Positions 999 to 26,633 of a DNA stretch of 31,464 nt are shown here, piece by piece. Numbering within the stretch: the first letter of the stretch is position 1; every line of letters starts with the position of its first letter. The position numbers were made by a program, and so were the translations under genes. The notes under the pieces are model-generated. The model did no database searches. It saw only the letters and a list, made by a program, of their open reading frames with translations, and was not told the origin of the DNA. Origin of the DNA: a virus; the IMG/VR virus record IMGVR_UViG_3300048107_000188, positions 1-31,464 of that record; one strand, written 5' to 3'.

Positions 999-1004
999 AT
1001 TTAG
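998..1004 (-). promoter_or_regulatory. Late-type promoter CTAAATA abutting the terminator
   Basis: CTAAATA on the minus strand resembles the T4-like late promoter core (TATAAATA, with relaxed first bases in marine relatives). Initiation about 6 nt downstream would fall inside the first arm of the terminator hairpin. A second match, GATAAATA, lies at 1055-1062 over the end of the 68-residue gene. Confidence 0.45.
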
Positions 1005-1053
1005 TGTGATGTGTTTGATGGATTTTGCCATCCACATCAGCGGCGACGATACT

Positions 1054-1260
1054 TTATTTATCGTTGTATAGATTCTCCAGTTTTTCTCTGGATAGATCTA
1101 CATACAATACCTCTTCACCTATCTGAGGTGCCTCGGGATGTTTCCGAGATCTAGCACCCCAGTAAATAGATTTAAGGTTGTAATACATAAGAGCAAAGGC
1201 ACCGCCAGCAATGAGAGCGAAGCATGTGAAGTAAAGAAAGACTTCAAAACTATTCATCAT
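1054..1260 (-). CDS. Small membrane protein, last gene of the psbD operon (68 aa)
   Basis: A 68-residue protein with one hydrophobic segment near the N-terminus (about residues 6-27: F-L-Y-F-T-C-F-A-L-I-A-G-G-A-F-A-L-M-Y-Y) followed by a charged tail of about 40 residues. Its ATG overlaps the stop of the 81-residue gene upstream (ATGA at 1257-1260), so the two are translationally coupled. A terminator follows. I recognise no domain. Its place behind psbD suggests a thylakoid or inner-membrane role, but that is inference. The last codons overlap a GATAAATA late-promoter-like word. Confidence 0.7.
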   Translation of the reverse strand: MMNSFEVFLYFTCFALIAGGAFALMYYNLKSIYWGARSRKHPEAPQIGEEVLYVDLSREKLENLYNDK

Positions 1261-1502
1261 GCCTCCTGAAGAGATTGAACTGTGTTGTGTAACTCACCAA
1301 CATCACGAAGACCCTCGGCACTAAACCAAGGAGCATTAGCCCAACTGAATCCTTCACCAAAGGTGTTATCAGGTGCAGTGATATACCAATGACATGATGT
1401 GTCAGGCACATCTACTGCACACTTAGACCAATCGTCACTCCACTGTGGGACTTGCACCCACATTAGAGCAGCAAACATAATACTGAAGAGTGATTTAATC
1501 AC
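1257..1502 (-). CDS. Small exported protein following psbD (81 aa)
   Basis: An 81-residue protein. The first roughly 17 residues ([17 protein letters not shown]) look like a short signal peptide or membrane anchor. The rest is Trp-rich with two cysteines (about 28 and 37) that could form a disulphide if exported. The start overlaps the psbD stop (ATGA, 1499-1502) and the stop overlaps the next start, so it is expressed with psbD. No family is recognised. Function unknown; export is inferred from the N-terminus only. Confidence 0.7.
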
Positions 1503-2554
1503 AGTGCATTACCTCTTGGTAGTACTTCCTCAGGGAAGATGAAGTTTTCATGTGGTTGGTCAGCAGGTGCCATCCAAGCACGGAGTCCTTCATTCAGGAG
1601 GATATTCTTGGTGTAGAAGGTCTCGAATTCAGGATCCTCCGCTGCACGAATCTCCTGAGATACGAAGTCGTAAGCACGAAGATTAAGAGCGAGTCCAACA
1701 ATACCGATAGAAGAAGTCCAGAGACCCATGACGGGCACGAATAGCATAAAGAAATGCAACCAACGCTTGTTACTAAAAGCAATACCGAAGATCTGTGACC
1801 AGAAACGGTTCGCAGTAACCATCGAGTAAGTTTCCTCCTCTTGCGTAGGCTCAAAAGCCTTGAAAGTATTCGCTTGCTCACCATCTTCAAACAGCGTGTT
1901 TTCTACAGTAGCACCATGGATTGCACATAGCAATGCTCCACCCAGTATACCAGCAACACCCATCATATGGAAGGGGTTGAGGGTCCAGTTGTGGAAACCC
2001 TGCAGGAAGAGTAGGAATCTAAAGATTGCTGCTACCCCGAAACTAGGTGCAAAGAACCATGAAGACTGACCCAGTGGATACAGAAGGAATACGCTGACAA
2101 AGACAGCAATAGGACCAGAGAACGCAATAGCATTGTAGGGACGGATACCAACTAGACGAGCGATCTCAAACTGTCTAAGCATGAAACCAATGAGAGCGAA
2201 GGCACCGTGGAGAGCCACGAAAGCCCAGAGTCCCCCAAGTTGGCACCAGCGGACGAAATCCCCCTGAGCTTCAGGACCCCAAAGTAGAAGAAGAGAATGA
2301 CCCATAGCGTCAGCAGGCGTTGAGACAGCTGACGTAAGAAAATTAGCACCCTCAAGATAGGAAGTAGCAAGTCCGTGGGTGTACCAACTCGTGACAAAAG
2401 TTGTGCCAGTAAGCCAACCACCAATGGCAAGATAAGCAGTGGGAAGAAGAAGTATTCCAGACCAACCCACAAAGACAAAGCGATCCCGTTTAAGCCAGTC
2501 ATCAAGGATATCAAACCAACCCCTCCGTTGTTGTTGTAGTGTAGCAGTCGTCAT
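1499..2554 (-). CDS. psbD: Photosystem II reaction-centre protein D2
   Basis: D2 pairs with D1 to form the photosystem II core and carries pheophytin, QA and the non-heme iron. The phage copy is thought to keep electron flow going while host D2 turns over. The protein is 351 residues, one shorter than the usual cyanobacterial 352, and collinear over its full length. Cofactor residues are present with a one-residue offset: TyrD Y159, H188, the special-pair ligand H196, and the iron ligands H213 and H267. It starts N-terminally M-T-T-A-T-L, preceded by a weak AAGG. It lies 11 nt after a 73-residue membrane protein and is coupled to two small downstream genes. No intron or truncation. Confidence 0.98.
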
Positions 2555-2565
2555 TGAATTTTACC

Positions 2566-2787
2566 TTAGTTGTTTAGTTCCAAATAGAATTTTGTTTGAT
2601 CACTAGGTGCATTCTCGTAGAATGAGATGTCACCATACATTTTATGATCTTTGTATCCAACCATGCGACCTTTTGTATTTTGGATAGCACCCATCATAGC
2701 AATGATAAGGAAGATAGCAGGAGGACCAATGATTAAAGCACCACCGATCACATAGTAAGTGAGCAATTCGATTAGATCAGTAGACAT
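2566..2787 (-). CDS. Small membrane protein between psbA and psbD (73 aa)
   Basis: A 73-residue protein with one long hydrophobic segment (about residues 8-34, including Y-V-I-G-G-A-L-I-I-G-P-P-A-I-F-L-I-I-A) and a polar C-terminus rich in Tyr, Lys and Asp. It sits between the psbA terminator and psbD, so it is probably transcribed with psbD. I do not recognise it as a named photosystem II subunit. Its neighbours make a thylakoid role plausible but unproven. No clear Shine-Dalgarno precedes the ATG. Confidence 0.75.
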   Translation of the reverse strand: MSTDLIELLTYYVIGGALIIGPPAIFLIIAMMGAIQNTKGRMVGYKDHKMYGDISFYENAPSDQTKFYLELNN

Positions 2788-2804
2788 AAAACTTTACAGT
2801 AATG

Positions 2805-2835
2805 AAGAAAAGAAAAGGGGTCCGTAGACCCCTTT
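2805..2835 (-). terminator. psbA terminator
   Basis: On the minus strand a perfect 9-bp stem (AAAGGGGTC / GACCCCTTT, hairpin 2814-2835) with a TACG tetraloop is followed by TTTTCTTTTCTT. It begins 21 nt past the psbA stop. Confidence 0.93.
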
Positions 2836-2841
2836 ATTATA
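2836..2841 (-). promoter_or_regulatory. Extended -10 element (TGGTATAAT) before the psbA terminator
   Basis: TATAAT preceded by TGG on the minus strand forms an extended -10 without a good -35. Initiation about 7 nt downstream would fall within the psbA terminator hairpin, giving a transcript for the 73-residue gene and psbD that lacks the 5' arm. Confidence 0.4.
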
Positions 2842-2856
2842 CCACAAGTTGAGTGA

Positions 2857-3936
2857 TCAACCGATGCTAGGTGCGGTAAGTGCCACAGGTGTGGACTCGG
2901 CAGCAGCCAGATCGAGTGGGAAGTTGTGAGCGTTACGCTCGTGCATGACTTCCATACCAAGACCAGCGCGGTTAAGCACGTCTGCCCAGGTAGGGAGGAC
3001 ACGACCATTGTTGTCCAAGATGGACTGGTTGAAGTTGAAACCGTTGAGGTTGAATGCCATGGTGCTTACGCCCAGTGCAGTAAACCAGATTCCGACAACA
3101 GGCCATGCGGCAAGGAAGAAGTGAAGACTTCTGCTGTTGTTGAAGGAAGCGTATTGGAAGATCAAACGACCAAAGTAACCATGAGCGGCGACGATGTTGT
3201 AAGTCTCTTCCTCTTGTCCAAACTTGTAACCATAGTTTTGTGACTCAGATTCAGTCGTCTCACGGACGAGTGAAGAAGTAACAAGACTACCATGCATTGC
3301 CGAGAAGAGTGATCCACCGAAGACACCTGCTACTCCCAACATGTGGAAGGGGTGCATAAGGATGTTGTGCTCTGCTTGGAAGACAAGCATGTAGTTGAAT
3401 GTGCCAGAGATACCAAGAGGCATTGCGTCAGAGAAAGAACCTTGACCGAAAGGATAGACCAGGAAGACTGCGGATGCTGCTGCAACAGGTGCAGAGTATG
3501 CAACACAGATCCAAGGACGCATCCCAAGACGGTAAGACAATTCCCATTCACGTCCCATATAGGCAAAGATGCCGATCAGGAAGTGGAAGATTACCAATTG
3601 GAAAGGACCGCCGTTATACAACCACTCGTCGAGTGATGCGGCTTCCCAGATGGGGTAGAAGTGAAGACCAATTGCGTTGGAGGATGGGACAACAGCACCA
3701 GAAATGATGTTGTTACCATACATGAGTGAACCTGCTACGGGCTCACGGATACCGTCGATATCGACGGGTGGTGCCGCTACGAAAGCGATCACGAAGCAGA
3801 TGGTTGCCGCCAACAGAGTTGGGATCATCAGCACTCCAAACCATCCGACATAGAGTCGGTTGTTTGTGGAAGTTACCCACTCGCAGAACGAATCCCACGC
3901 GGAGGTTGTTTGTTGTTGCCTTGAAAGAGTTGACAT
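2857..3936 (-). CDS. psbA: Photosystem II reaction-centre protein D1
   Basis: D1 holds the oxygen-evolving manganese cluster, TyrZ, pheophytin and QB. It is the fastest-damaged photosystem II subunit, and phage copies replace it during infection. The protein is 359 residues, full length and without an intron. Every functional position I checked is in register: E130 (pheophytin), Y161, D170, H190, H198, H215, H252, F255, S264, H272, H332, E333, H337, D342 and A344, with a cleavable C-terminal tail after A344. Glu rather than Gln at 130 is the high-light form of cyanobacterial D1. The gene has its own sigma-70-type promoter (4083-4111), a leader of about 140 nt and a strong terminator. No Shine-Dalgarno is obvious. 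Confidence 0.99.
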
Positions 3937-4059
3937 TGAAATTAGGGTAGGTATGAGTGCAGGGAAACACTAATATAATATGCCTGTTGCACCCTCAGCA
4001 GCAGGTATGAAAGACTGTTATTTAATGACGCTGTTTAGTCTTGGTGAGGCGTCAAGTGT

Positions 4060-4075
4060 GTCGTTGTGTAACGAC
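4060..4075 (-). other. Stem-loop at the 5' end of the psbA leader
   Basis: A perfect 6-bp stem (GTCGTT / AACGAC) with a 4-nt loop begins about 1 nt after the predicted psbA transcription start. It could protect the mRNA 5' end; there is no U-tract, so it is not a terminator. Confidence 0.4.
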
Positions 4076-4082
4076 CGTCCAT

Positions 4083-4111
4083 ACTATATATGGTTTTCAA
4101 CACCTTGTCAA
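4083..4111 (-). promoter_or_regulatory. Sigma-70-type promoter of psbA
   Basis: On the minus strand a perfect -35 TTGACA (4106-4111), a 17-nt spacer and -10 TATAGT (4083-4088). The -35 overlaps the halogenase stop codon. The same -35, spacer length and -10 occur before the hli genes (7263-7291). Confidence 0.8.
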
Positions 4112-5577
4112 GTGTAATCGAAGGTGGACTCCAAGAAAACCGACATAGGAGGACATGTCTTGGCATATTGTAGCACAAGTTGGTGCTCATATGCCCAGTC
4201 ATCGACTTTGCGACGAGTAACAAGCTCTGGATACTTGAAGTATTCAGTGAGTCGCTTGTTGACTGTAGTATAACCTGATCCTGCAAGGATGTGAAGGACC
4301 TGTGTGCCACCATGGGAAATGGCTTCGTTGCCATTCATAATATACTGAATGGCTTCATGGGTTCCTGTGAGATCATACTCTATCTCATCGCTGACATGAC
4401 TCCAGAAAGGTGTGTCACGACGGCGACTGTAATAGTAGTGTGCCTCTACAAACTCACGCCATCCGTCCATATGCTCAGTGAGGTTATGGTTGAAGCGATC
4501 ACGCTGGAATTGTCCAGGCAGAGGTGCCTCCTGTAGGAGGTCCATGAGAGCAAGGATGCCATGGTGTGTGTTGAAGAGACTTGTAGATTCTAACGGCTCA
4601 ATGAATCCAAACGAGAGTCCGATGGACACACAGTTACCTGTCCATGCTCTCTCATGCCTGCCGTTTTCAAACTTGATCAGACGTGCATCATCGTATCCGA
4701 ATTCTTTACGGGCATCCTCTTCGCTCTGAAACTTTGAGCAGAATACATATCCCCTGCTGAGGAAGTCATAGGTAGGGATGGTCCACTGCCAACCAGCAGT
4801 CATTGCTTTAGCGTTGGTGTAGGGGACCATCTCGGTCTCACGATCAGTGTAGTCAGTCTTAACTACGAGTGCGCTGTCAGTTACAATTGAATCGTAGGGT
4901 TTCCACTTGCTAAGCGCCCCCCCGACAACTGCTTGCTGCCCACTACAGTCGATAAAGAGATCACCAAAAATCTTTTCTCCCCCGAGTTTGTATGGTCCAC
5001 CTGTGACCACGACGTGCTCGATGTTCCTTCCTTTAGTAGCAACAGACTTAACTGTGCTATTAACCACCTTAAGATCTTTGCAGAAGGTGTCTCTGAGAAA
5101 GTTGGAGAAGGCTGCTCCGTTAATATGGAATGATCTGTCTTTAGCGAGGTCATATGGTCCTAGGATATTTTTATTCAGTGGTAGTCGCCCTGCCTCTGCC
5201 ACCGCCGTGAATGGCATGAATACTTGGGAGAAGGGTGGTAGATTCTCTGGATGAAATGCTTTGGCGAGCATCCACTCTTGAAATTTTATATGTTTTGCGA
5301 CTGACTGTCCATTGGGATAGTGAAATACTTCACCCTCCTTCACGAAACCATCAAACCTTGAAGAGGATTTGAATGTTGCTCGTGCTGCAGGGAGGAATAC
5401 TTCATCAGTGATCCCCATGTAATCAAGATACTGATTGATGTGTGGCGTAGTGCTTTCACCTACACCGATGGCATCACCACCATTGATCATAGTGATGTCC
5501 CAGTTAGGGAAAGTTTTACAAAAAGCGGCGGCAGTCATCCAACCAGATGTACCACCACCGACAATCACAATACGCAT
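4108..5577 (-). CDS. Flavin-dependent tryptophan halogenase family protein
   Basis: A 489-residue FAD-dependent enzyme of the PrnA/RebH family, which uses FADH2, O2 and halide to chlorinate or brominate an aromatic substrate. Visible motifs are the N-terminal FAD-binding G-G-G-T-S-G-W (7-13), G-V-G-E-S-T-T-P (38-45), a Lys in A-T-F-K (K70) at the place of the catalytic lysine, the diagnostic W-x-W-x-I-P (263-268), and G-F-I-E-P-L-E-S with the conserved glutamates (324-331). Length is a little under the usual 500-540. The substrate cannot be read from sequence and no flavin reductase lies in the window, so a host reductase would be needed. It starts 1 nt after a small basic protein and ends inside the psbA promoter. 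Similar genes are known in some cyanophages. Confidence 0.92.
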   Translation of the reverse strand: MRIVIVGGGTSGWMTAAAFCKTFPNWDITMINGGDAIGVGESTTPHINQYLDYMGITDEVFLPAARATFKSSSRFDGFVKEGEVFHYPNGQSVAKHIKFQEWMLAKAFHPENLPPFSQVFMPFTAVAEAGRLPLNKNILGPYDLAKDRSFHINGAAFSNFLRDTFCKDLKVVNSTVKSVATKGRNIEHVVVTGGPYKLGGEKIFGDLFIDCSGQQAVVGGALSKWKPYDSIVTDSALVVKTDYTDRETEMVPYTNAKAMTAGWQWTIPTYDFLSRGYVFCSKFQSEEDARKEFGYDDARLIKFENGRHERAWTGNCVSIGLSFGFIEPLESTSLFNTHHGILALMDLLQEAPLPGQFQRDRFNHNLTEHMDGWREFVEAHYYYSRRRDTPFWSHVSDEIEYDLTGTHEAIQYIMNGNEAISHGGTQVLHILAGSGYTTVNKRLTEYFKYPELVTRRKVDDWAYEHQLVLQYAKTCPPMSVFLESTFDYT

Positions 5578-5578
5578 G

Positions 5579-5716
5579 TTACTTTTTTTTCAGTGTCTTT
5601 TTAATCATCTTAGCATACAAAACTTCCTCTGGTGTATACCAATTGGGATGTTTCTTTGCTCCTTTAAGTAGTTTCTTTACTGCTTTCTTTGTTGAGAGTT
5701 GTTTCTTTTCTTCCAT
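5579..5716 (-). CDS. Small basic protein upstream of the halogenase (45 aa)
   Basis: A 45-residue, very lysine-rich protein containing K-K-A-V-K-K-L-L-K-G-A-K-K-H-P and W-Y-T-P-E-E-V-L-Y-A-K. It resembles a short conserved cyanophage protein I have seen without a function. The ATG at 5714-5716 is preferred; the frame stays open upstream to 5785, but that part runs over the 101-residue gene. With this start it overlaps that gene by 53 nt. It ends 1 nt before the halogenase ATG. Nucleic-acid binding is possible from charge alone. Confidence 0.6.
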   Translation of the reverse strand: MEEKKQLSTKKAVKKLLKGAKKHPNWYTPEEVLYAKMIKKTLKKK

Positions 5717-5969
5717 TAATGGATTGATATTTAGAAAATTCTTTGAAGAGATTCTCACCAACGAAAGCATAGAGGTCTCCGCCATGGGTAGACAATGCTT
5801 CTTCTAATCCTTGCTGGGTGGATGGGACATTAAGCAACCCATTCGACACATAGTAGTGACAGAACTCATACACTTCTCTATTTATGGGGATTTGCTTATG
5901 AATAAATGCAGTCAGACAAATCTGTCTCTCTGCCATCTTGCCGTCGTCATAGCGCCAGTCTTCAATCAT
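5664..5969 (-). CDS. Conserved hypothetical protein (101 aa)
   Basis: A 101-residue soluble protein, probably helical, with a Lys/Thr/Ser-rich tail. Its ATG overlaps the stop of the 51-residue gene upstream (ATGA, 5966-5969), supporting this start. The 3' 53 nt are shared in another frame with the 45-residue gene. A CATAAATA word at 5879-5886 resembles a late promoter but lies in the coding body. No recognisable domain. Confidence 0.65.
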   Translation of the reverse strand: MIEDWRYDDGKMAERQICLTAFIHKQIPINREVYEFCHYYVSNGLLNVPSTQQGLEEALSTHGGDLYAFVGENLFKEFSKYQSINGRKETTLNKESSKETT

Positions 5970-6121
5970 TGAGCAATCATCCTGAATTCTTTTTTAGTTT
6001 GGAATGCCTTCTGCCCTGCTTCACACAGGTGCAGAAGAAATTGAGCCTTGTGTAGGGATAGGTTGGAGTAGTTTTTTAACTTAACCCAGTTACCATCCCA
6101 GTAAAACTCTAAGCAATACAT
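5966..6121 (-). CDS. Small hypothetical protein (51 aa)
   Basis: A 51-residue frame with ATG at 6119-6121 and TGA at 5966-5968. It begins 3 nt after the stop of the lysozyme-like gene and its stop overlaps the start of the 101-residue gene (ATGA), which strongly supports that it is real although short. The sequence starts M-Y-C-L-E-F-Y-W-D-G-N-W-V-K-L-K and is followed by a helical part with Q-F-L-L-H-L-C-E-A-G-Q-K-A-F. Function unknown. Confidence 0.7.
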   Translation of the reverse strand: MYCLEFYWDGNWVKLKNYSNLSLHKAQFLLHLCEAGQKAFQTKKEFRMIAQ

Positions 6122-6124
6122 GAC

Positions 6125-6718
6125 TCATGCATCCAACCTGAGTTTATTTAGATAATCCCAAGCATATACTTCACGGTTACCTTTGATGCCCCATCCCAAC
6201 CAACGATAAGAAGGTTGCATATAGTATGCAATACTCATTCCATTCGATTGGAAGTATGGAAGTTGACGCTGAAATATATTCTCGTTAACCATGTAACGAA
6301 GTTGGCAGTCGAATGTGGAGGGATCACACTCAAACTTATTGGCAAATTTGCCGAGGTTGACGTAGCGGTTTACGCTGGTCCACTGAATGATGCCATAACC
6401 ACCCCGATGACAATCGTGGTAAGAAACTCTAGCACCTCCCTCGCATATATTGGCAGTGAAATTAGACTCCTGTCTAATGTTGCCAAGAATTGTAGCAATA
6501 GCATTTTTGTCTTTGATATTTACTGATGGTGTTTGTAAATACGCTACGACTTTTGTCTCTTCAGGGGAGCAATCTTCACACTCCCATTTAGTCTCTAAGA
6601 TCTTTGTAGGTCTCAGTCCTGCTGCTTCAACTTTGTGAGGAGCAGAAGAAGTACATGCCATAAGCAGTGGCAGCATTGCTGTTACCATTACAAGTGGTCT
6701 CATGTCTAGTCTATCCAT
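6125..6718 (-). CDS. Lipoprotein with phage lysozyme-like (cell-wall hydrolase) domain
   Basis: The C-terminal two thirds resemble the phage tail-lysozyme family (Phage_lysozyme2 type): A-T-I-L-G-N-I-R-Q-E-S-N-F with a candidate catalytic Glu, then G-G-Y-G-I-I-Q-W-T-S and a Cys-containing region ending in Y-R-W-L-G-W-G. The N-terminus has a classic lipoprotein signal: R-P-L-V-M-V-T-A-M-L-P-L, then the lipobox L-M-A-C followed by T-S-S. I chose ATG 6716-6718 (197 aa); ATG 6701-6703 is equally possible. The frame extends to a GTG at 6742, but that lies in a terminator hairpin and would bury the signal peptide. A membrane-anchored peptidoglycan hydrolase for lysis or superinfection control is inferred. 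Neighbours are small proteins leading to the halogenase. Confidence 0.75.
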   Translation of the reverse strand: MDRLDMRPLVMVTAMLPLLMACTSSAPHKVEAAGLRPTKILETKWECEDCSPEETKVVAYLQTPSVNIKDKNAIATILGNIRQESNFTANICEGGARVSYHDCHRGGYGIIQWTSVNRYVNLGKFANKFECDPSTFDCQLRYMVNENIFQRQLPYFQSNGMSIAYYMQPSYRWLGWGIKGNREVYAWDYLNKLRLDA

Positions 6719-6721
6719 AAT

Positions 6722-6744
6722 AGAAAAGGGTGCCAGAGGCACCC
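6722..6744 (-). terminator. Intrinsic terminator after the hli operon
   Basis: On the minus strand a perfect 7-bp GC-rich stem (GGGTGCC / GGCACCC, 3-nt loop) is followed by TTTTCT. It lies between the 45-residue hli-operon gene and the lysozyme-like gene. Confidence 0.85.
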
Positions 6745-6748
6745 GAGT

Positions 6749-6776
6749 ATCATAGCGTATTTAGCGTGGTTGTCAA
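6749..6776 (-). promoter_or_regulatory. Overlapping sigma-70-type and late-type promoters
   Basis: On the minus strand TTGACA (6771-6776), a 16-nt spacer and TATGAT (6749-6754). A late-type CTAAATA (6758-6764) lies in the spacer. Both point toward the lysozyme-like gene, and initiation would occur at the edge of the terminator hairpin. Confidence 0.6.
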
Positions 6777-6910
6777 GAGGTTGGAGCATAAGAAGGAATC
6801 ATCATTCCCCCATCACTTCCGTCGTCATCCTCATCAGTGTCTGCTAGTAGTAGCAAGATAATGAAAGGAGTAAAACAGAAGACGATCGTCTGAAATACCT
6901 CTAGACTCAT
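6773..6910 (-). CDS. Small membrane protein in the hli operon (45 aa)
   Basis: A 45-residue protein with an N-terminal hydrophobic segment (F-Q-T-I-V-F-C-F-T-P-F-I-I-L-L-L-L-A) and an acidic, glycine-rich tail (D-T-D-E-D-D-D-G). Its ATG (6908-6910) overlaps the TAA of the second hli gene (TAATG), fixing the start; the longer frame up to 6988 is only the shadow of that hli gene. Unknown function; co-expression with hli suggests a thylakoid role. Confidence 0.65.
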   Translation of the reverse strand: MSLEVFQTIVFCFTPFIILLLLADTDEDDDGSDGGMMIPSYAPTS

Positions 6911-7017
6911 TACCAAATACCTGGGATGATCTGTCCTGTGACAGCGTAGGTGCCCATTGCGGCAACGATTCCGATCATTGCCATCCAACCATTAAAACGT
7001 TCTGCTTGAGGAGTCAT
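6910..7017 (-). CDS. hli: High-light-inducible protein, short form (35 aa)
   Basis: A 35-residue single-helix Hlip. The chlorophyll-binding pattern E-R-F-N-G-W-x-A-M-I-G occupies residues 6-16, followed by the hydrophobic helix and a G-I-W end. The usual Arg after N-G is Trp here. Hlips bind chlorophyll and carotenoid, protect photosystem II under excess light and act during assembly. ATG at 7015-7017, 1 nt after the stop of the first hli gene; the stop TAA overlaps the next ATG. It lacks the longer N-terminal extension of its neighbour. Confidence 0.9.
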   Translation of the reverse strand: MTPQAERFNGWMAMIGIVAAMGTYAVTGQIIPGIW

Positions 7018-7018
7018 T

Positions 7019-7237
7019 TCACCACACTCCGAAGAAGAGTTTGCCAGTGAAGGCATAGGACAGGAAGGCAGAGACGATGCCAAGCATTGCTAGGCGTCCG
7101 TTGAGTTTCTCTGCGGACTCATTGTGAGTCTCGTATACTTCTGATTGCATTGCTTTCTCCACTTTAGGGTCGATGTACATTTGGGGCTCGGTGGCATACA
7201 TGTTGGTGCGACCACCGTCTTCGATTGTAACAGTCAT
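7019..7237 (-). CDS. hli: High-light-inducible protein (72 aa)
   Basis: A single-helix chlorophyll a/b-binding-like protein. Residues 1-40 form a polar N-terminal extension; the motif E-K-L-N-G-R-L-A-M-L-G at 43-53 and the hydrophobic helix ending in F-F-G-V-W are diagnostic of the family. Phage Hlips are thought to protect photosystem II together with phage D1. First gene of a three-gene operon (hli, hli, 45-residue protein) behind a sigma-70-type promoter. No obvious Shine-Dalgarno. Confidence 0.96.
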   Translation of the reverse strand: MTVTIEDGGRTNMYATEPQMYIDPKVEKAMQSEVYETHNESAEKLNGRLAMLGIVSAFLSYAFTGKLFFGVW

Positions 7238-7262
7238 TTGTTAAGGTATGTTACTTCTTGTA

Positions 7263-7291
7263 ACTATATATAACTTTACAATATTTGTCAA
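7263..7291 (-). promoter_or_regulatory. Sigma-70-type promoter of the hli operon
   Basis: On the minus strand TTGACA (7286-7291), a 17-nt spacer and TATAGT (7263-7268), 26 nt upstream of the first hli start codon. Hexamers and spacing are identical to the psbA promoter. Confidence 0.82.
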
Positions 7292-7297
7292 GCCCCC

Positions 7298-7615
7298 TTA
7301 AGAAAATGTGATGACATCCTGTCCACCGATCACCCCACCGAGGTCTACTGGTTGTGCTGCAAAGGTGTCCCCACTGAAGGAGATCGTGTCACTGCTCTCA
7401 ATGTTCTGGAAGTCATAGTTATCGTTGAGATAGATCGGACTGCTAGGGAATTCGATCTGTGGCACGTCCTCAGCACACTGCTCAGTGATGGTCTGTAGAC
7501 CATTGTAGTGACGCCACAGCTCACTCAGGTGACTGCGATTGAAGTTAGGGTCATCGATCGCACTGTGCAGTGCTTTCTTGAGTGCCTCTGTTGCTGCTGT
7601 CAATTCTGCTTTCAT
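7298..7615 (-). CDS. Hypothetical protein (105 aa)
   Basis: A 105-residue soluble protein. The N-terminal half is helical (K-A-E-L-T-A-A-T-E-A-L-K-K-A-L) and the acidic C-terminal half is rich in Asp, Ser and Gly. I chose the ATG at 7613-7615. The frame continues to 7729, but that extension covers a clear terminator hairpin (7672-7697) and is unlikely to be translated. It ends just before the hli promoter. No domain recognised. Confidence 0.65.
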   Translation of the reverse strand: MKAELTAATEALKKALHSAIDDPNFNRSHLSELWRHYNGLQTITEQCAEDVPQIEFPSSPIYLNDNYDFQNIESSDTISFSGDTFAAQPVDLGGVIGGQDVITFS

Positions 7616-7671
7616 AATTCCAGTGACGGATAACTCCGCTGACGATAAAACAATTGGTGACAAGATAGGAT

Positions 7672-7697
7672 ACAAAAATGCAGGTACGAATACCTGC
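7672..7697 (-). terminator. Intrinsic terminator with UUCG tetraloop
   Basis: On the minus strand a perfect 7-bp stem (GCAGGTA / TACCTGC) with a TTCG tetraloop is followed by ATTTTTG. It lies between the 93-residue gene (stop 7762) and the 105-residue gene. A TATGAT word lies just upstream at 7707-7712. Confidence 0.85.
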
Positions 7698-7761
7698 AAT
7701 GTAATTATCATAGGGTCCTGTCTTGTCATCAGAGAATGACCCTAGGGAATACTTCCAGACG

Positions 7762-8043
7762 TTAAGAAGACGCTTTAACACTGTCTCGTGTATAGCAAGG
7801 GACACCAGCAGGGTCTAACCATTTGGCATACTCAAAGTCTTCAATAGCAAGAAGCATCTGATCACCATTATCAAAGAGATAGATGTCAGAATACTTCTTT
7901 GTATACTCGTTTGCTTTTTGCAAACGAAAATCAGGTTTGCCATTCAATTGAATGTGACCCTTCTGCACATAGCGATAGGGAAACCTCTCGTGAATCACAG
8001 TAGTCTTGGTCGTTGCGACTGACTGCGGATCAAGATCATTCAT
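7762..8043 (-). CDS. Conserved hypothetical protein (93 aa)
   Basis: A 93-residue soluble protein with mixed alpha/beta character and many aromatic residues (R-F-P-Y-R-Y-V; Y-L-F-D-N-G-D). The ATG overlaps the stop of the 56-residue gene (ATGA, 8040-8043), so the two are coupled. A terminator follows. No domain or catalytic motif recognised. Confidence 0.7.
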   Translation of the reverse strand: MNDLDPQSVATTKTTVIHERFPYRYVQKGHIQLNGKPDFRLQKANEYTKKYSDIYLFDNGDQMLLAIEDFEYAKWLDPAGVPCYTRDSVKASS

Positions 8044-8210
8044 GGTCGTCTGAGTGTCTTCAAATATGATAGCACATCCTCACGGATCCACAACAGTTCG
8101 TGGTAACATTTCTGGGAATGAGCACATGCTCTCAGTTTGGGATCAGGTTCTAGCACACTCTCTATGAAAATGTCAAGTCCCCTATTCCATTTGTCGTCCT
8201 GTGTCTCCAT
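8040..8210 (-). CDS. Small hypothetical protein (56 aa)
   Basis: A 56-residue frame with ATG at 8208-8210 and TGA at 8040-8042. A strong Shine-Dalgarno, AAGGAG with a 5-nt gap, immediately precedes the ATG and overlaps the stop of the oxygenase gene upstream. The stop overlaps the next start. The protein is mainly helical and ends in an Arg-rich tail; two Cys occur near the middle. Function unknown. Confidence 0.75.
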   Translation of the reverse strand: METQDDKWNRGLDIFIESVLEPDPKLRACAHSQKCYHELLWIREDVLSYLKTLRRP

Positions 8211-8218
8211 GTAACTCC

Positions 8219-8842
8219 TTAGATAAAATTAAACCAACCTGTAATAATCATCTTCTCACTATCGTTAGAGACTCTACCACGATGGTGGAATGTCCAATCT
8301 GCTGGCCAGATCACAGTGTATCCACGCTGCGCTGGGACATACTTCTGCTGATAATACCATTCGGTACCACCATCAGGGACATCATTGAGGTAAGTCATGA
8401 AGACTAGGTGTCGATAGACGGATCCAGGCAGGGCATTAGACCTTTCGGTATGCCACTGCTTGAATCCACCACCTTTAGGATACCACTGCATAGACAGTGG
8501 CTCCTTTACTTGGAATCGTGAGGTCTCACAGAAAGGAAACCTCTCCAAGTATTGATTGAGCACGTCTTGAAGTGCGTGCATATAGTTTTGCACCTGAGGA
8601 CAGGACAGTTGATAAGGGACATGTAGATCGAGAGAGTCTTTATACTCCTTATCCACCGTCACATCTCCTTGTCTAAGGACCTGACCCTCATGAAAATTCA
8701 AGACGTTTTGATTATGCCAGAAATCTTCAAGTCCCGTCACAACGGATTCATCAATAAAATTACCCCAGATGAAGTCATTACACTCATCATTAAGTGGGGT
8801 GCAGACGTTACCTTTATAAATTGTGATTTCTTCTTTAAGCAT
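8219..8842 (-). CDS. 2OG-Fe(II) oxygenase (prolyl-hydroxylase-like)
   Basis: A 207-residue 2-oxoglutarate and iron(II)-dependent oxygenase. The iron triad reads H131-x-E133 in K-Q-W-H-T-E-R and a distal His (186 or 187) in W-T-F-H-H-R-G, with K197 in S-E-K-M-I-I-T-G-W as probable 2OG-binding residue. HxE instead of HxD is an accepted variant. A strand pattern L-V-F-M-T-Y-L-N-D then G-G-T-E fits the double-stranded beta-helix. Substrate unknown; phage members are proposed to hydroxylate proteins or nucleobases. It is one of three such genes in the window. Confidence 0.9.
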   Translation of the reverse strand: MLKEEITIYKGNVCTPLNDECNDFIWGNFIDESVVTGLEDFWHNQNVLNFHEGQVLRQGDVTVDKEYKDSLDLHVPYQLSCPQVQNYMHALQDVLNQYLERFPFCETSRFQVKEPLSMQWYPKGGGFKQWHTERSNALPGSVYRHLVFMTYLNDVPDGGTEWYYQQKYVPAQRGYTVIWPADWTFHHRGRVSNDSEKMIITGWFNFI

Positions 8843-9208: not shown

Positions 9209-9799
9209 TTAAGCATTTACACGAACGATTGGGTCACCCTCCCACATAGTCCTCTTAACCTTGTCAACTTTGCCTCGTAGGTTAAACGAAACGATGGTGC
9301 GTGGTCTGTCTGACTCATTGGGTAGTGCCTCATGTGCAATGGTTGCTGGAAAAATAACCATGTCACCTTCTTTAACAGGTGGGACGAAGGACTGTAACCT
9401 ACCGCTCCAAGGATTATTGAAAGGTGAAATGAATTGCGTGGCTTGATGGAGTTGTGGATCAAAGTCCACATACATTACTGCTGACCATCCACTGTGTCCA
9501 TGATTGTGTAGACCGTGCTTCTGACCTTTGTATGATGTTTGACACCACATGTCAGTAAACTCGGTGCGTCTACGCTCAGTAAACTCAGCAATGTATGGCT
9601 CGATAATATCAATTACCGTATCAGCGTAAGGTGGCAACTCCCATTCTGCCTGATGAAAGAAGTCTGTGTATTGCTCACCATTAGAATCTAAATGCTCTTG
9701 CCCAAAGATAGGCAGAGCACTCATGATCTTTTCTTTATTCTGTTTCCAATTCTGTATTTCATAGTGTGCAATCGGAATTGAGAATAAAGAATGAATCAT
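9209..9799 (-). CDS. 2OG-Fe(II) oxygenase superfamily protein
   Basis: A 196-residue protein matching the phage/marine family annotated as putative 2OG-Fe(II) oxygenase. The H-N-H-G-H-S-G-W block (98-105), a distal His in A-T-I-A-H-E-A-L-P (H156) and R167 in R-P-R-T-I-V-S-F-N supply the metal and 2OG ligands. The N-terminal part (L-F-S-I-P-I-A-H-Y-E-I) is typical of the family. Its ATG overlaps the stop of a 50-residue gene (ATGA, 9796-9799). The stop TAA directly precedes the tRNA. Substrate unknown. Confidence 0.88.
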   Translation of the reverse strand: MIHSLFSIPIAHYEIQNWKQNKEKIMSALPIFGQEHLDSNGEQYTDFFHQAEWELPPYADTVIDIIEPYIAEFTERRRTEFTDMWCQTSYKGQKHGLHNHGHSGWSAVMYVDFDPQLHQATQFISPFNNPWSGRLQSFVPPVKEGDMVIFPATIAHEALPNESDRPRTIVSFNLRGKVDKVKRTMWEGDPIVRVNA

Positions 9800-23700: not shown

Positions 23701-25073
23701 ACTTTGAATCCGTCAAAACTTTTTTTAGTATCGGTGAATGCATCCTCACTGATGTCACCAGCATCAATGATGTTGTCCTGGGCGGACTGGTCACAATCAT
23801 ACAGCCTCATCTTCGCCCTGTCAATCCCTACAACAAATCGTTTGAATAGGGTGGGGTCGTTGTATCTATTTTTGAGTTGCTTGACCATGATCTGACCCAG
23901 CTGCTCCATCTCCTCTGTGGATATAAGCGCGACCATAAGATCAGCAGTAGCAGGCAGTCCAAAAGACTCGCTAGTATCGGTAATATCCACATCAGAATTT
24001 CCATATCCACTTCGGGTAGTTTGAGTAGCAGAGACAATAGGGACATTCAACTTGCCAGCGAGTCCTCTCAATTCCTCTGCGATGGACTTAACATATGTAT
24101 AGGAATTGACTGCAGTCCCTTTGTATCGTGAGGACGCACAGATATTAAGGTAGTCAACAAATACAATGTCAGGATGGAAACCTTTCTTGAGTGACAACTC
24201 ATTCAAGAGTGCTTCAAAGTGTCCCACATGTGCAGACGCTGTGGGATACTCTTTAATAACTAAGCGACCTTGTGTCTTCTTCTTAAGAGAGTCCACCTTC
24301 TTGATGTATCTCTCTTTAGTAAACATCGGATCACTCAGTTGTTGGATCGGGATGTCCAGAAGGTTGGCGTCAATTCGCTCAGCAATCTTCTCCTCTGCCA
24401 TTTCAAGTGTAATGTAGAGTACGTTCCTCCCCTGCAGGAGACTGGCACTAGCGCAGTGGCACATGAATAGAGACTTCCCGACACCTGTGCCAGCAAGTGC
24501 GATGTTGAGAGTCTTATTAGGCAGACCACCTTTTGTGATTTTGTTAAAATAGTCGATGTCAAAGGGAATCTTCTCCTCTTTCCTGTGGTAAAAGTCGTAA
24601 CGGTCTGATGCATCAGAGATGTAATCGTGACCTACATGATCATCAAAACAGACGCCCAATGCCTCAGACATAATGCTGGGGATAGCGTCCTTTGTCCTTG
24701 TCTTATCTTGTCCATCTGCAATCTTAACTGACTCCATGAGAGCAAGATAGACTGCACGTTCTTTACACCACTTCTCAGTGGTCTCCATCAACCATTCATC
24801 GTTGTATGTGTCACGGTCTAGGTTATCAAGGAAGGTTTCAATCTCCTTGTAAGTGTCCTCCGTGATGTCACGTCGCTGCTCAATCTCAATCTTCAGAGCG
24901 TTAGGCTCTGGATTGATATCGTACTCACCGATGTATTCCTGAATCGTCTGAAACAACAGACGGTTAGTAAACATATCGAAGTATTCATCCTTAAGGAAAG
25001 GCAAAACCTTTCGACAGTAATCTTCCTCAAGGATAAGTTTACTGAGTGCAATCTCTTCGATCTTTAGGCTCAT
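23697..25073 (-). CDS. 41: Replicative DNA helicase (T4 gp41-like, DnaB family)
   Basis: A 458-residue hexameric 5'-3' helicase that unwinds at the fork and works with the gp61 primase. The N-terminal domain (1-140) is helical. The RecA-like motor has Walker A A-G-T-G-V-G-K-S (194-201), a catalytic Glu in T-L-E-M-A, Walker B D-I-V-F-V-D-Y-L-N (about 299-307) and an S-A-T-Q-T-T-R motif. Length is near T4 gp41 (475). Overlaps of 4 nt with both neighbours couple it to the oxygenase upstream and MazG downstream. Confidence 0.97.
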   Translation of the reverse strand: MSLKIEEIALSKLILEEDYCRKVLPFLKDEYFDMFTNRLLFQTIQEYIGEYDINPEPNALKIEIEQRRDITEDTYKEIETFLDNLDRDTYNDEWLMETTEKWCKERAVYLALMESVKIADGQDKTRTKDAIPSIMSEALGVCFDDHVGHDYISDASDRYDFYHRKEEKIPFDIDYFNKITKGGLPNKTLNIALAGTGVGKSLFMCHCASASLLQGRNVLYITLEMAEEKIAERIDANLLDIPIQQLSDPMFTKERYIKKVDSLKKKTQGRLVIKEYPTASAHVGHFEALLNELSLKKGFHPDIVFVDYLNICASSRYKGTAVNSYTYVKSIAEELRGLAGKLNVPIVSATQTTRSGYGNSDVDITDTSESFGLPATADLMVALISTEEMEQLGQIMVKQLKNRYNDPTLFKRFVVGIDRAKMRLYDCDQSAQDNIIDAGDISEDAFTDTKKSFDGFKV

Positions 25074-25630
25074 TGATAATGTAGATAGGTGGTCAATTCA
25101 TACTTGTCATTACTGATAGGAGCGTTGTCCGAGTAAGGAAACGTCCACCCAGGTGGATATAATACCACATCACCTTGCTGTGGTTTAATCTTGAGACCCA
25201 CTTGCGGGAATTCCATTTCGCCTCCCTCCTCAACATCGTTAAGGAAGAATTTGTATGCTAGGAATCTCTTAGCAGAGTCGGCATCACCAACATCGATATG
25301 TAGACCGAAGTTATCCCCAGTCTCGACATTGTATTTATTCAATTTGATCTGCTCAAGATTATTCTTGGTTGCCCAGAATTTCTCGCAGTCCATCTGCTTC
25401 ATGTATTCATGTGCAGACCACTGAATGATGGGTACAATCTGTTGTTGGATTGCATTCCACTCATGATCACCCTCGTCTGCCAGGAAAGAAATGTTGATGA
25501 TGTTATATTGTGGGACACCATCATCCCACCGCATCATCTTGTCAGTATTGTCTGCCTTAAGGAGAGCATTACGACATACATTTGGATCAAGTGCTTTGGG
25601 ATAGATCTTAATCCATTCCTTATGATCCAT
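25070..25630 (-). CDS. 2OG-Fe(II) oxygenase-like protein with an altered distal ligand
   Basis: A 186-residue protein from ATG 25628-25630, which has AGGAG 7 nt upstream; the frame to 25660 opens with TTG. It has the family layout: G-L-H-I-D-V-G (H111-x-D113), [20 protein letters not shown], and K176 before Y-E-L-T-T-Y-L as 2OG ligand. Where relatives read P-H-R-G this one has P-Y-S-D, so the distal iron-binding His is Tyr166 (a single C-to-T change would do it). It may be inactive, bind metal differently, or use the neighbouring Asp168. It lies between uvsX and the helicase and overlaps uvsX by 11 nt. Confidence 0.82.
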
Positions 25631-26633
25631 AAGAGAACTCCTGCTCTGCTGCTTTGTCAAGTTTAACCATCACTTCGGGGGTGAAGTATTTTTCGGGATC
25701 AGAGAGAATAGACTTAGGATAAACAGAAGTCTCACCAAACTTGATACGATTACCGACCCGTTGGAAGACTCCATACTTCTCACCCAATTCCAGTAGTCCG
25801 AAATAGCGGTCAAGTCCACGCTCGTCATAGTAAAGACGTGTTTCAACGACAGTGTTCTCCTTACTCAGACGCGACTTAGCAGTCTTTGCCTTGATAATGT
25901 TTCCAATAACTTCTTTGCCATCCTTCTCTTTTTTCTTTGAGAGATAGATGATTGTAGATGCAGCATACTTGAGTCCACTGCCTCCACCCATTTCCTTTGT
26001 AGGGACATAAGATCCAATAACATCATAAGTGTGGTTAGTAACGATCATAGGCACGTTTGCTTTACCCAGTTTAAGAGTGAGCACACGGAAGATAGACTTA
26101 ACTACCTGTGCCCGTGACATATCGCGGGTTTCTTTACCCGCTTCGGTGTCCTCAATCTCCTTAGAGGTTGAGAGCATTCCTAATGAGTCTAACACAAACA
26201 TCATAGGTTGGCGAGACTCCTCAGGCAGACTTAAGTATTTGTCAATAATCTTGATTGCCTGCTGCCTAAACTCCTGCACTGTAGTGACAGGGACAATGAC
26301 CATACGATTTGAGTCAATCTTGCGAGACTCGATCATGTTCTTACTGATGGCAGACTCAGATTCAAAATAGATTACACCTGCATCAGGATCCATGTCAAGA
26401 AAATGCTTGACAATCCCAAGGCAATAGAAAGTCTTACCAGTTGAAGACTCGCCTGCCAGAGCTGTAATCTTATTGGACGGGATGCCACCATAGATCGATC
26501 CAGATACCAGTGCATTAAAAATATAACTGCCAGTATCGATATAAGAGGTGGTATCACCTGCTGCAACTCCGTCTGAAACCAGACCAGCGTATTCATTATC
26601 GATCTCCTTTACGATATCAGAAAGAAAATTCAC
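25620..26633 (-). CDS. uvsX: UvsX recombinase (RecA-like)
   Basis: Strand-exchange recombinase for recombination-dependent replication and repair. I start at GTG 26631-26633: it has GGAGG 10 nt upstream, overlaps the polymerase stop (GTGA) and gives [10 protein letters not shown], the usual start of cyanophage UvsX; the frame to 26675 opens with TTG inside the polymerase gene. The protein is 337 residues, with Walker A G-E-S-S-T-G-K-T (61-68), E in Y-F-E-S-E-S, Walker B M-F-V-L-D-S-L-G, and V-T-N-H-T-Y in the DNA-binding loop region. The acidic C-terminal tail is short. Confidence 0.96.

Follow-up and report, generated by a model that had tools for sequence, protein, structure and literature searches.

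A halogenase-type gene of a cyanophage-specific clade lies ahead of psbA, with a psbA promoter-like site enclosing its stop codon

Introduction

VirX1 of cyanophage Syn10 is a characterised halogenase, which passages of a review (PMC8407142) describe as having a broad substrate range, a preference for iodide and an open active site. Cyanophage halogenases also appear as prnA in passages of the comparisons PMC2984593 and PMC3037559, and 'tryptophan halogenase' is given for 20 of 153 cyanophages in a passage of PMC10452541. The tryptophan halogenase of S-MbCM6 (YP_007001928.1) is known here from annotation alone. Genes of this kind have been listed in cyanophages for years without a native role. 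The titles, abstract openings and passages that we consulted in the cyanophage-halogenase literature yielded no description of a subfamily anchored at psbA or of a promoter in a halogenase stop codon.

Here we describe a flavin-dependent halogenase (FDH) gene in an IMG/VR virus record of 31,464 bases (the window, meaning the whole stretch of DNA analysed), and separate one clade of these genes from the others. Cyanophage halogenases are already known, and what the clade adds to them is a new subfamily.

The window and its gene content

On the basis of its gene content (Pfam, PHROGs) the window appears to come from a T4-like cyanophage. The photosynthesis and nucleotide genes behind this assignment are psbA, psbD, hli and those for the large and small chains of ribonucleotide reductase, and the remainder encode a family-B DNA polymerase, a RecA-like protein, a DnaB-like helicase, MazG, Hsp20, ferredoxin and 2OG oxygenases. 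The FDH gene lies on the minus strand and is surrounded on that strand by psbA, coding for photosystem II D1 (2857-3936; PF00124, E 7.5e-90), psbD, coding for photosystem II D2 (1499-2554; PF00124, E 2.6e-73, called D2 after the gene at the corresponding position of cyanophage records), and hli, coding for a high light inducible protein (7019-7237; phrog_178, E 1.8e-29). Its placement in a photosynthesis block, as in the original prediction, therefore holds.

Between hli and the halogenase is a gene for a Phage_lysozyme2-domain protein (6125-6742, minus strand; PF18013, E 3.4e-12), a probable lipoprotein judging from the lipobox-like stretch LLMAC that follows an inner ATG. Proteins with this domain are also encoded ahead of the halogenase of S-MbCM6 and ahead of psbA in ACG-2014d. 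The ferredoxin gene (30372-30028) is about 25 kb from the halogenase and there is no adjacency. We also note three 2OG-Fe(II) oxygenase genes (8219-8842, 9209-9799 and 25070-25660, minus strand) and a tRNA-Arg (TCT) gene (9208-9135, minus strand).

A halogenase-type protein with an intact catalytic core

The FDH gene is a complete open reading frame exactly where it had been called, 5577-4108 on the minus strand, with an ATG start and a TGA stop, and encodes 489 amino acids that match PF04820 (E 3.2e-82; 277 bits against a cut-off of 21) and phrog_2928, 'tryptophan halogenase'. Conservation of its residues was counted over 74 clade sequences, which were those of 50% identity or more with near-copies included, and PrnA numbering was transferred via L143, a Pseudomonas piscis sequence with the length of PrnA (538) and nearly identical to it over 400 aligned residues. 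In the GxGxxG FAD-binding motif (residues 7-12; 5542-5559, minus strand) G7 and G9 are present in 74 of 74 members and G12 in 69. The catalytic lysine K70, corresponding to PrnA K79 (5368-5370, minus strand), the catalytic glutamate E330, corresponding to PrnA E346 (4588-4590, minus strand), and W263, W265, I267 and P268 of the WQWTIP motif (residues 263-268; 4774-4791, minus strand) are each found in all 74.

A third halogenase motif is written Fx.Px.Sx.G in a passage of PMC12645471, which we interpret as FxxPxxSxG; the window protein keeps F325, P328 and S331 and has S333 in place of the final glycine. The claim that all family motifs are intact thus stands for G7xG9xxG12, K70 and W263-Q-W-T-I-P268 but not for the last residue of the third motif. 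That position is serine in almost the whole clade (71 of 74 members) and also in 69 of the 97 bacterial relatives, so the glycine is not universal in the family.

An AlphaFold2 model built from 59 aligned sequences has a mean pLDDT of 92.0 and a pTM of 0.91. When its Foldseek matches were re-examined, ranks 1-48 of the 50 listed were tryptophan-halogenase-type by title (Z 36.5-45.1). The tightest listed match is to VirX1 (Z 44.0, rmsd 2.0 Å over 481 residues), which is also the best solved relative by sequence, and the match to PrnA (2ard) has a Z of 44.1 at 2.7 Å over 464 residues; the predicted model therefore recovers the fold of PrnA, RebH and the phage halogenase VirX1, the comparison that had been proposed as a check.

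Ratios of dN/dS (Nei-Gojobori; identical and saturated pairs left out, pairs with 0.08<pS<0.6 used) range from 0.097 to 0.235 between the window gene and 28 relatives with usable pS, and in 404 other clade pairs the median is 0.143 and the maximum 0.338. These values show that the protein is under purifying selection, and an intact catalytic core of halogenase type is supported.

We regard the protein as probably an active halogenase, with the reservation that halogenation does not follow from intact residues. A flavoprotein of the same fold that no longer halogenates, and acts instead as an oxidase or hydroxylase, would agree with the serine that ends the third motif and with the clade's own residues N89, F335, N336, Y382 and Y383, but K70 and E330 are invariant in the clade and most of the bacterial relatives carry the same serine; we consider this alternative unlikely.

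A clade of cyanophage halogenases

A search with the FDH protein identified 69 IMG/VR loci with 53-100% identity, and the next relatives in a profile search, among the best 80 of 590, are no more than 37% identical. Other phage halogenases among the matches listed also reach at most 37%, with VirX1 at 33%. Among phage records the nearest are seven from the S-MbCM6 group (58%), in a comparison from which close records of the window's own genome may be missing. A quick maximum-likelihood analysis of 238 rows, which gave long-branch warnings, places 60 distinct sequences on one side of a branch with an SH-aLRT of 100, and the neighbouring group holds other phage halogenases including VirX1, together with one bacterial MAG sequence. 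Residues S73, F335, N336, T337, Y382 and Y383 are typical of the clade, each occurring in 73 or 74 of 74 members, and some of them also occur in single other phage halogenases. As judged from these alignments, the window FDH belongs to a supported halogenase clade of cyanophages.

Among the more distant homologues we note several peculiarities. The halogenase of Syn1 (L003 5001-6437, annotated tryptophan halogenase) has glutamine at the catalytic glutamate position (EPLQAT). In the S-PM2 record NC_006820 (L084, about 6001-7146) there is halogenase homology without a CDS, and the gene is annotated in the S-PM2 record LN828717. Homologues also occur in the human-faecal phage records MT835646 and MT837902 and, by a tally of organisms, in four Campylobacter phage records.

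Gene order at psbA

The claim that the halogenase stands directly before psbA extends to most of the clade: among the 64 clade loci with at least 450 bases after the FDH gene, psbA lies within 450 bases downstream in 57 (45 of 52 by distinct protein). In four of the seven exceptions (L071, L170, L174 and L175) psbA is found about 1.1-1.2 kb further on, after small ORFs that include a purC-like ORF in L170, and in the other three (L069, L172 and L176) there are only small ORFs up to the end of the flank sequence. In L170 the intervening segment, 2877-3929, contains a small ORF and the purC-like ORF (named by eye), and the psbA that follows is divergent. None of 88 other phage halogenases (22 from isolates and 66 from IMG/VR) has psbA downstream in the flank covered, which is at least 2 kb in 78 of them.

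A different halogenase-like gene was seen just before psbA on a single contig, L243 (602-1861), encoding a divergent PF04820 protein (E 1.8e-30) in which GWCFGIP replaces WxWxIP and EPLHG replaces EPLES. It matched only its own contig in a search of viral contigs, and so gives no second FDH family at psbA. Distant relatives occur in S-SSM5, S-MS29, S-SSM7, S-ShM2 and others, and in the three surroundings that were read (S-MS29, S-ShM2 and S-SSM7) there is no psbA within 5 kb of them.

The adjacency to psbA raises the possibility of a photosystem II target: the product would be a halogenated phenol or quinone directed at photosystem II or at electron transport, and the phage D1 would be a target that tolerates it. 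Bromoxynil and ioxynil, both of them halogenated phenols, bind at the QB site of D1, which speaks for the idea. However, 26 D1 positions in the region 211-275, which we take to cover the QB pocket, are identical in all FDH-linked D1 sequences (50-56 per position) and all 62 unlinked ones, and this herbicide model was rejected. Columns outside the pocket, including 124, 130, 155, 285, 288 and others, do differ in frequency and could be read in its favour, but the unlinked psbA set was picked by similarity to the window D1 and these differences may reflect kinship; overall we consider a photosystem target highly improbable. Position 130 of D1 is glutamine in 26 of 65 FDH-linked loci and in 2 of 62 unlinked loci. 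In a broader version a viral enzyme dedicated to photosynthesis would draw on light-made reduced flavin and oxygen, and would halogenate a cofactor or redox molecule of photosynthesis (a quinone, pigment or phenolic); electron flow would be tuned, or competitors killed, in the course of infection. We hold this version to be quite improbable.

The psbA promoter and transcription

A promoter-like site, TTGACA-17-TATAGT, lies at 4111-4083 on the minus strand, and its -35 hexamer encloses the TGA stop codon of the FDH gene (4110-4108), just as the original prediction had noted. A sigma-70-like promoter matching at least 10 of 12 positions is present between the end of FDH and psbA in 61 of 63 linked loci, the two without a good promoter being L063 and L065. 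In 51 of the 63 loci (38 of 49 by distinct protein) the -35 box encloses the FDH stop codon, always in the register T[TGA]C and always as TGA. Among the 12 loci in which the stop codon is outside the box, the promoter is 10-19 bases further up in L031, L032, L039, L040 and L066 and further down in L033, L034, L038, L072 and L173.

The window has eight promoter-like sites that match at least 11 of 12 positions, whereas 60 order-1 Markov sequences average 0.6. At a looser cut-off of 9 of 12 (window positions 1000-8100) the count is eight, below the 11.5 of shuffled sequences, and the excess is thus limited to the strong sites.

The psbA promoter is also found without the halogenase. Within 260 bases of psbA, 47 of 62 FDH-less loci (60 from IMG/VR and two isolates) contain a promoter that matches 10 or more of the 12 positions, and in 43 of those it is 179-214 bases before psbA. 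The promoter is therefore independent of the halogenase and is probably the older of the two. It is followed by a PhotoRC-II cis-regulatory RNA in the psbA leader (3970-4066, minus strand; RF01717, 49.9 bits against a gathering score of 39), and a hairpin resembling a terminator, identified by a consensus match, lies 3' of psbA (2814-2835, minus strand). With its own promoter, RNA leader and hairpin, psbA looks like a separate transcription unit.

The halogenase itself is probably transcribed from further upstream along with small genes. A candidate promoter of the unit that contains it, TTGACA-16-TATGAT, lies at 6776-6749 on the minus strand and in close relatives is about 1.2 kb before FDH; a second strong site in the window is at 7291-7263. 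Sites of at least 11 of 12 occur within 2.6 kb upstream of FDH in 56 of 60 clade loci examined. The suggestion that the position of the gene ties it to light-related expression thus survives insofar as the place is conserved, but the promoter points at psbA, is present in most of the loci that have no FDH, and lies beside a slot that can hold unrelated genes.

The slot before psbA and the origin of the halogenase

A small predicted-helical protein, hyp101, is encoded upstream of the halogenase (5664-5969, minus strand). Of the 68 clade loci that extend far enough, 66 have a homologue within the 700 bases that precede FDH, and in 16 of 70 loci it overlaps the halogenase by four bases. An AlphaFold2 model of hyp101 has a pLDDT of 84 and contains only helices, and no convincing Pfam match was found (the lowest E value, 0.017, came from one of 38 members). 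Between hyp101 and FDH is a small ORF (5579-5785, minus strand) in which phrog_14921 matches residues 31-68. Its long form overlaps hyp101, and its true start is perhaps the inner ATG at 5716.

Among the best 80 of 105 hits to hyp101, the halogenase follows in 65 of 66 testable loci with a full-length match, L373 being the exception, and 11 of 12 partial matches have psbA at 297-316 bases and no halogenase, the twelfth contig ending first. An obligate partnership between hyp101 and FDH was considered. It is weakened, within these same hits, by the shorter relatives that stand before psbA without FDH; in addition, hyp101 is present in one of the 62 FDH-less psbA loci and is absent in S-MbCM6 (L001) and L062.

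Some FDH-less cyanophage loci have an empty slot: IMG/VR contig L376 has the order peroxiredoxin-like ORF, hyp101-like ORF, psbA, and ACG-2014d, in whose genome there is no PF04820 match, has a lysozyme-domain gene directly before psbA. In other such loci the slot is occupied by unrelated ORFs, for example subtilase-like or tail-fibre-like (named by eye). The hot spot 'near psbA', one of four such regions in a passage of PMC3037559, explains the place of the halogenase well, and the presence of the psbA promoter in FDH-less loci indicates that the halogenase was probably inserted there.

Distances between FDH sequences and between psbA sequences correlate (Mantel r 0.489, none of 1000 permutations as high, 36 loci). 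Among 12 loci compared for identity to the window several are concordant, such as L015 (FDH 94.0%, psbA 95.2%), and others are discordant, as in L012 (92.6% and 81.0%), L170 (89.5% and 76.0%) and L030 (75.4% and 88.8%). Since the discordance runs in both directions, it suggests that psbA alleles have been exchanged in some lineages while the order FDH-psbA persisted.

It may be, then, that the halogenase is a passenger of the hot spot, its place before psbA saying nothing about photosynthesis and its function lying elsewhere. The unrelated ORFs in the slot, the hot spot itself and the promoter found without FDH all agree with this, but the order is kept over 53-100% identity and in 57 of 64 loci despite the apparent psbA exchange. 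We give this reading an even chance, and it is compatible with the explanation that we prefer.

That explanation, which we consider likely, is of a working PF04820 halogenase of a cyanophage-specific subfamily, with a single insertion before psbA and transcription from upstream. A plausible scenario is that the gene was acquired probably once, by insertion at the hot spot between hyp101 and a pre-existing psbA promoter, and has been inherited there since; it would be transcribed, probably from upstream promoters of host type, with the small genes, and the separate psbA promoter begins in its stop codon. Set against it are the seven loci without psbA within 450 bases, the 12 of 63 in which the stop codon is not in the -35 box, and L373, which has hyp101 without FDH.

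Substrate and flavin supply

PrnA residues H101, F103, Y443, Y444, E450, F454 and W455 are those that we take to bind tryptophan. H101 and F103 are replaced by Y87 and N89 in all 74 clade members; opposite Y443 and Y444 stand I420 and S421, and E450, F454 and W455 fall in a gap covering residues 450-455. Because the C-terminal part aligns poorly with PrnA, the change at 87-89 is the only secure one. The PrnA pocket for free tryptophan is therefore not kept, and action of the enzyme on free tryptophan is without support: F103 has become N89, and PrnA 450-455 lies in the gap, if the roles of these residues are as we assume. The substrate would instead be an aromatic molecule bound otherwise than in PrnA.

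A free-tryptophan halogenase of PrnA type, making chloro- or bromotryptophan, for example as an antibiotic that protects the infected host, would suit the Pfam name of PF04820 (tryptophan halogenase) and the shared fold, and antibiotic protection is speculated on in passages of PMC2984593 and PMC9964418. We find it improbable, because both substitutions at 87-89 are fixed in the clade, the segment 450-455 lies in the (uncertain) gap, and among the window ORFs scanned against Pfam there are no further genes of pyrrolnitrin-type biosynthesis.

No flavin reductase of family PF01613 was detected in the window or in the three complete genomes of S-MbCM6, Syn10 and Syn1, so FADH2 would have to come from elsewhere; PF01613 is present in 13 of 14 control genomes, including Synechococcus elongatus, and no partner enzyme is named thereby. 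In the preferred explanation the host cell would supply FADH2, which, by analogy to known members of the family, would react with oxygen and halide to give HOX. This would be handed to K70 and E330, and an aromatic molecule would be halogenated in a pocket other than the free-tryptophan pocket of PrnA.

Several phage halogenases whose annotation was read have a neighbourhood of tail-fibre and 2OG-oxygenase genes, and others do not. Tandem overlapping pairs of halogenases are found at L002 3473-6578, L004 3500-6611, L005 4986-8142 and L077 4001-7097, and adjoin tail-fibre and 2OG-oxygenase genes of cyanophages including Syn9, the sister of Syn10; this neighbourhood may point to modification of the virion or a surface structure. 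Syn10 has the gene order of Syn9 with its neighbours unnamed, and the S-CREM1 halogenase is accompanied by 2OG-oxygenase genes. By extension, the window enzyme could modify a phage protein or glycan, and MibH, titled lanthipeptide tryptophan 5-halogenase, is among its fold matches. However, the psbA-linked clade is separate from the tail-fibre-linked halogenases and neither Pfam nor PHROGs identifies a tail-fibre gene among its neighbours in the window, which makes this decidedly unlikely.

Comparison with known halogenases

PrnA, RebH and PyrH share the fold and the lysine-glutamate catalytic pair with the window FDH at 26-29% identity over the structural alignment, but the residues for free tryptophan in PrnA are not kept. 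VirX1 (6QGM) shares the fold, the catalytic residues and a viral origin at 33% identity, and like the window FDH has tyrosine at the site of PrnA H101; in contrast, it keeps phenylalanine at the site of PrnA F103, differs at N89, F335, N336 and Y382, and falls outside the clade (SH-aLRT 100). It is one of a tandem pair and not at psbA, and tail-fibre assembly genes are nearby in Syn9.

The closest counterpart is the S-MbCM6 halogenase, which belongs to the same clade at 58% identity and shares the order halogenase-psbA, with the differences that no hyp101 homologue was found before it and that a ferredoxin gene lies between psbA and psbD. The S-MbCM6 group thus provides isolates in which a gene of this clade can be tested, and the enzyme, if active, would be a new halogenase for chemistry. 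The comparison also gives an example of a gene whose stop codon is supplied by the -35 box of the promoter next to it, in a clade that has mostly stayed before psbA although psbA itself was apparently exchanged in some lineages.
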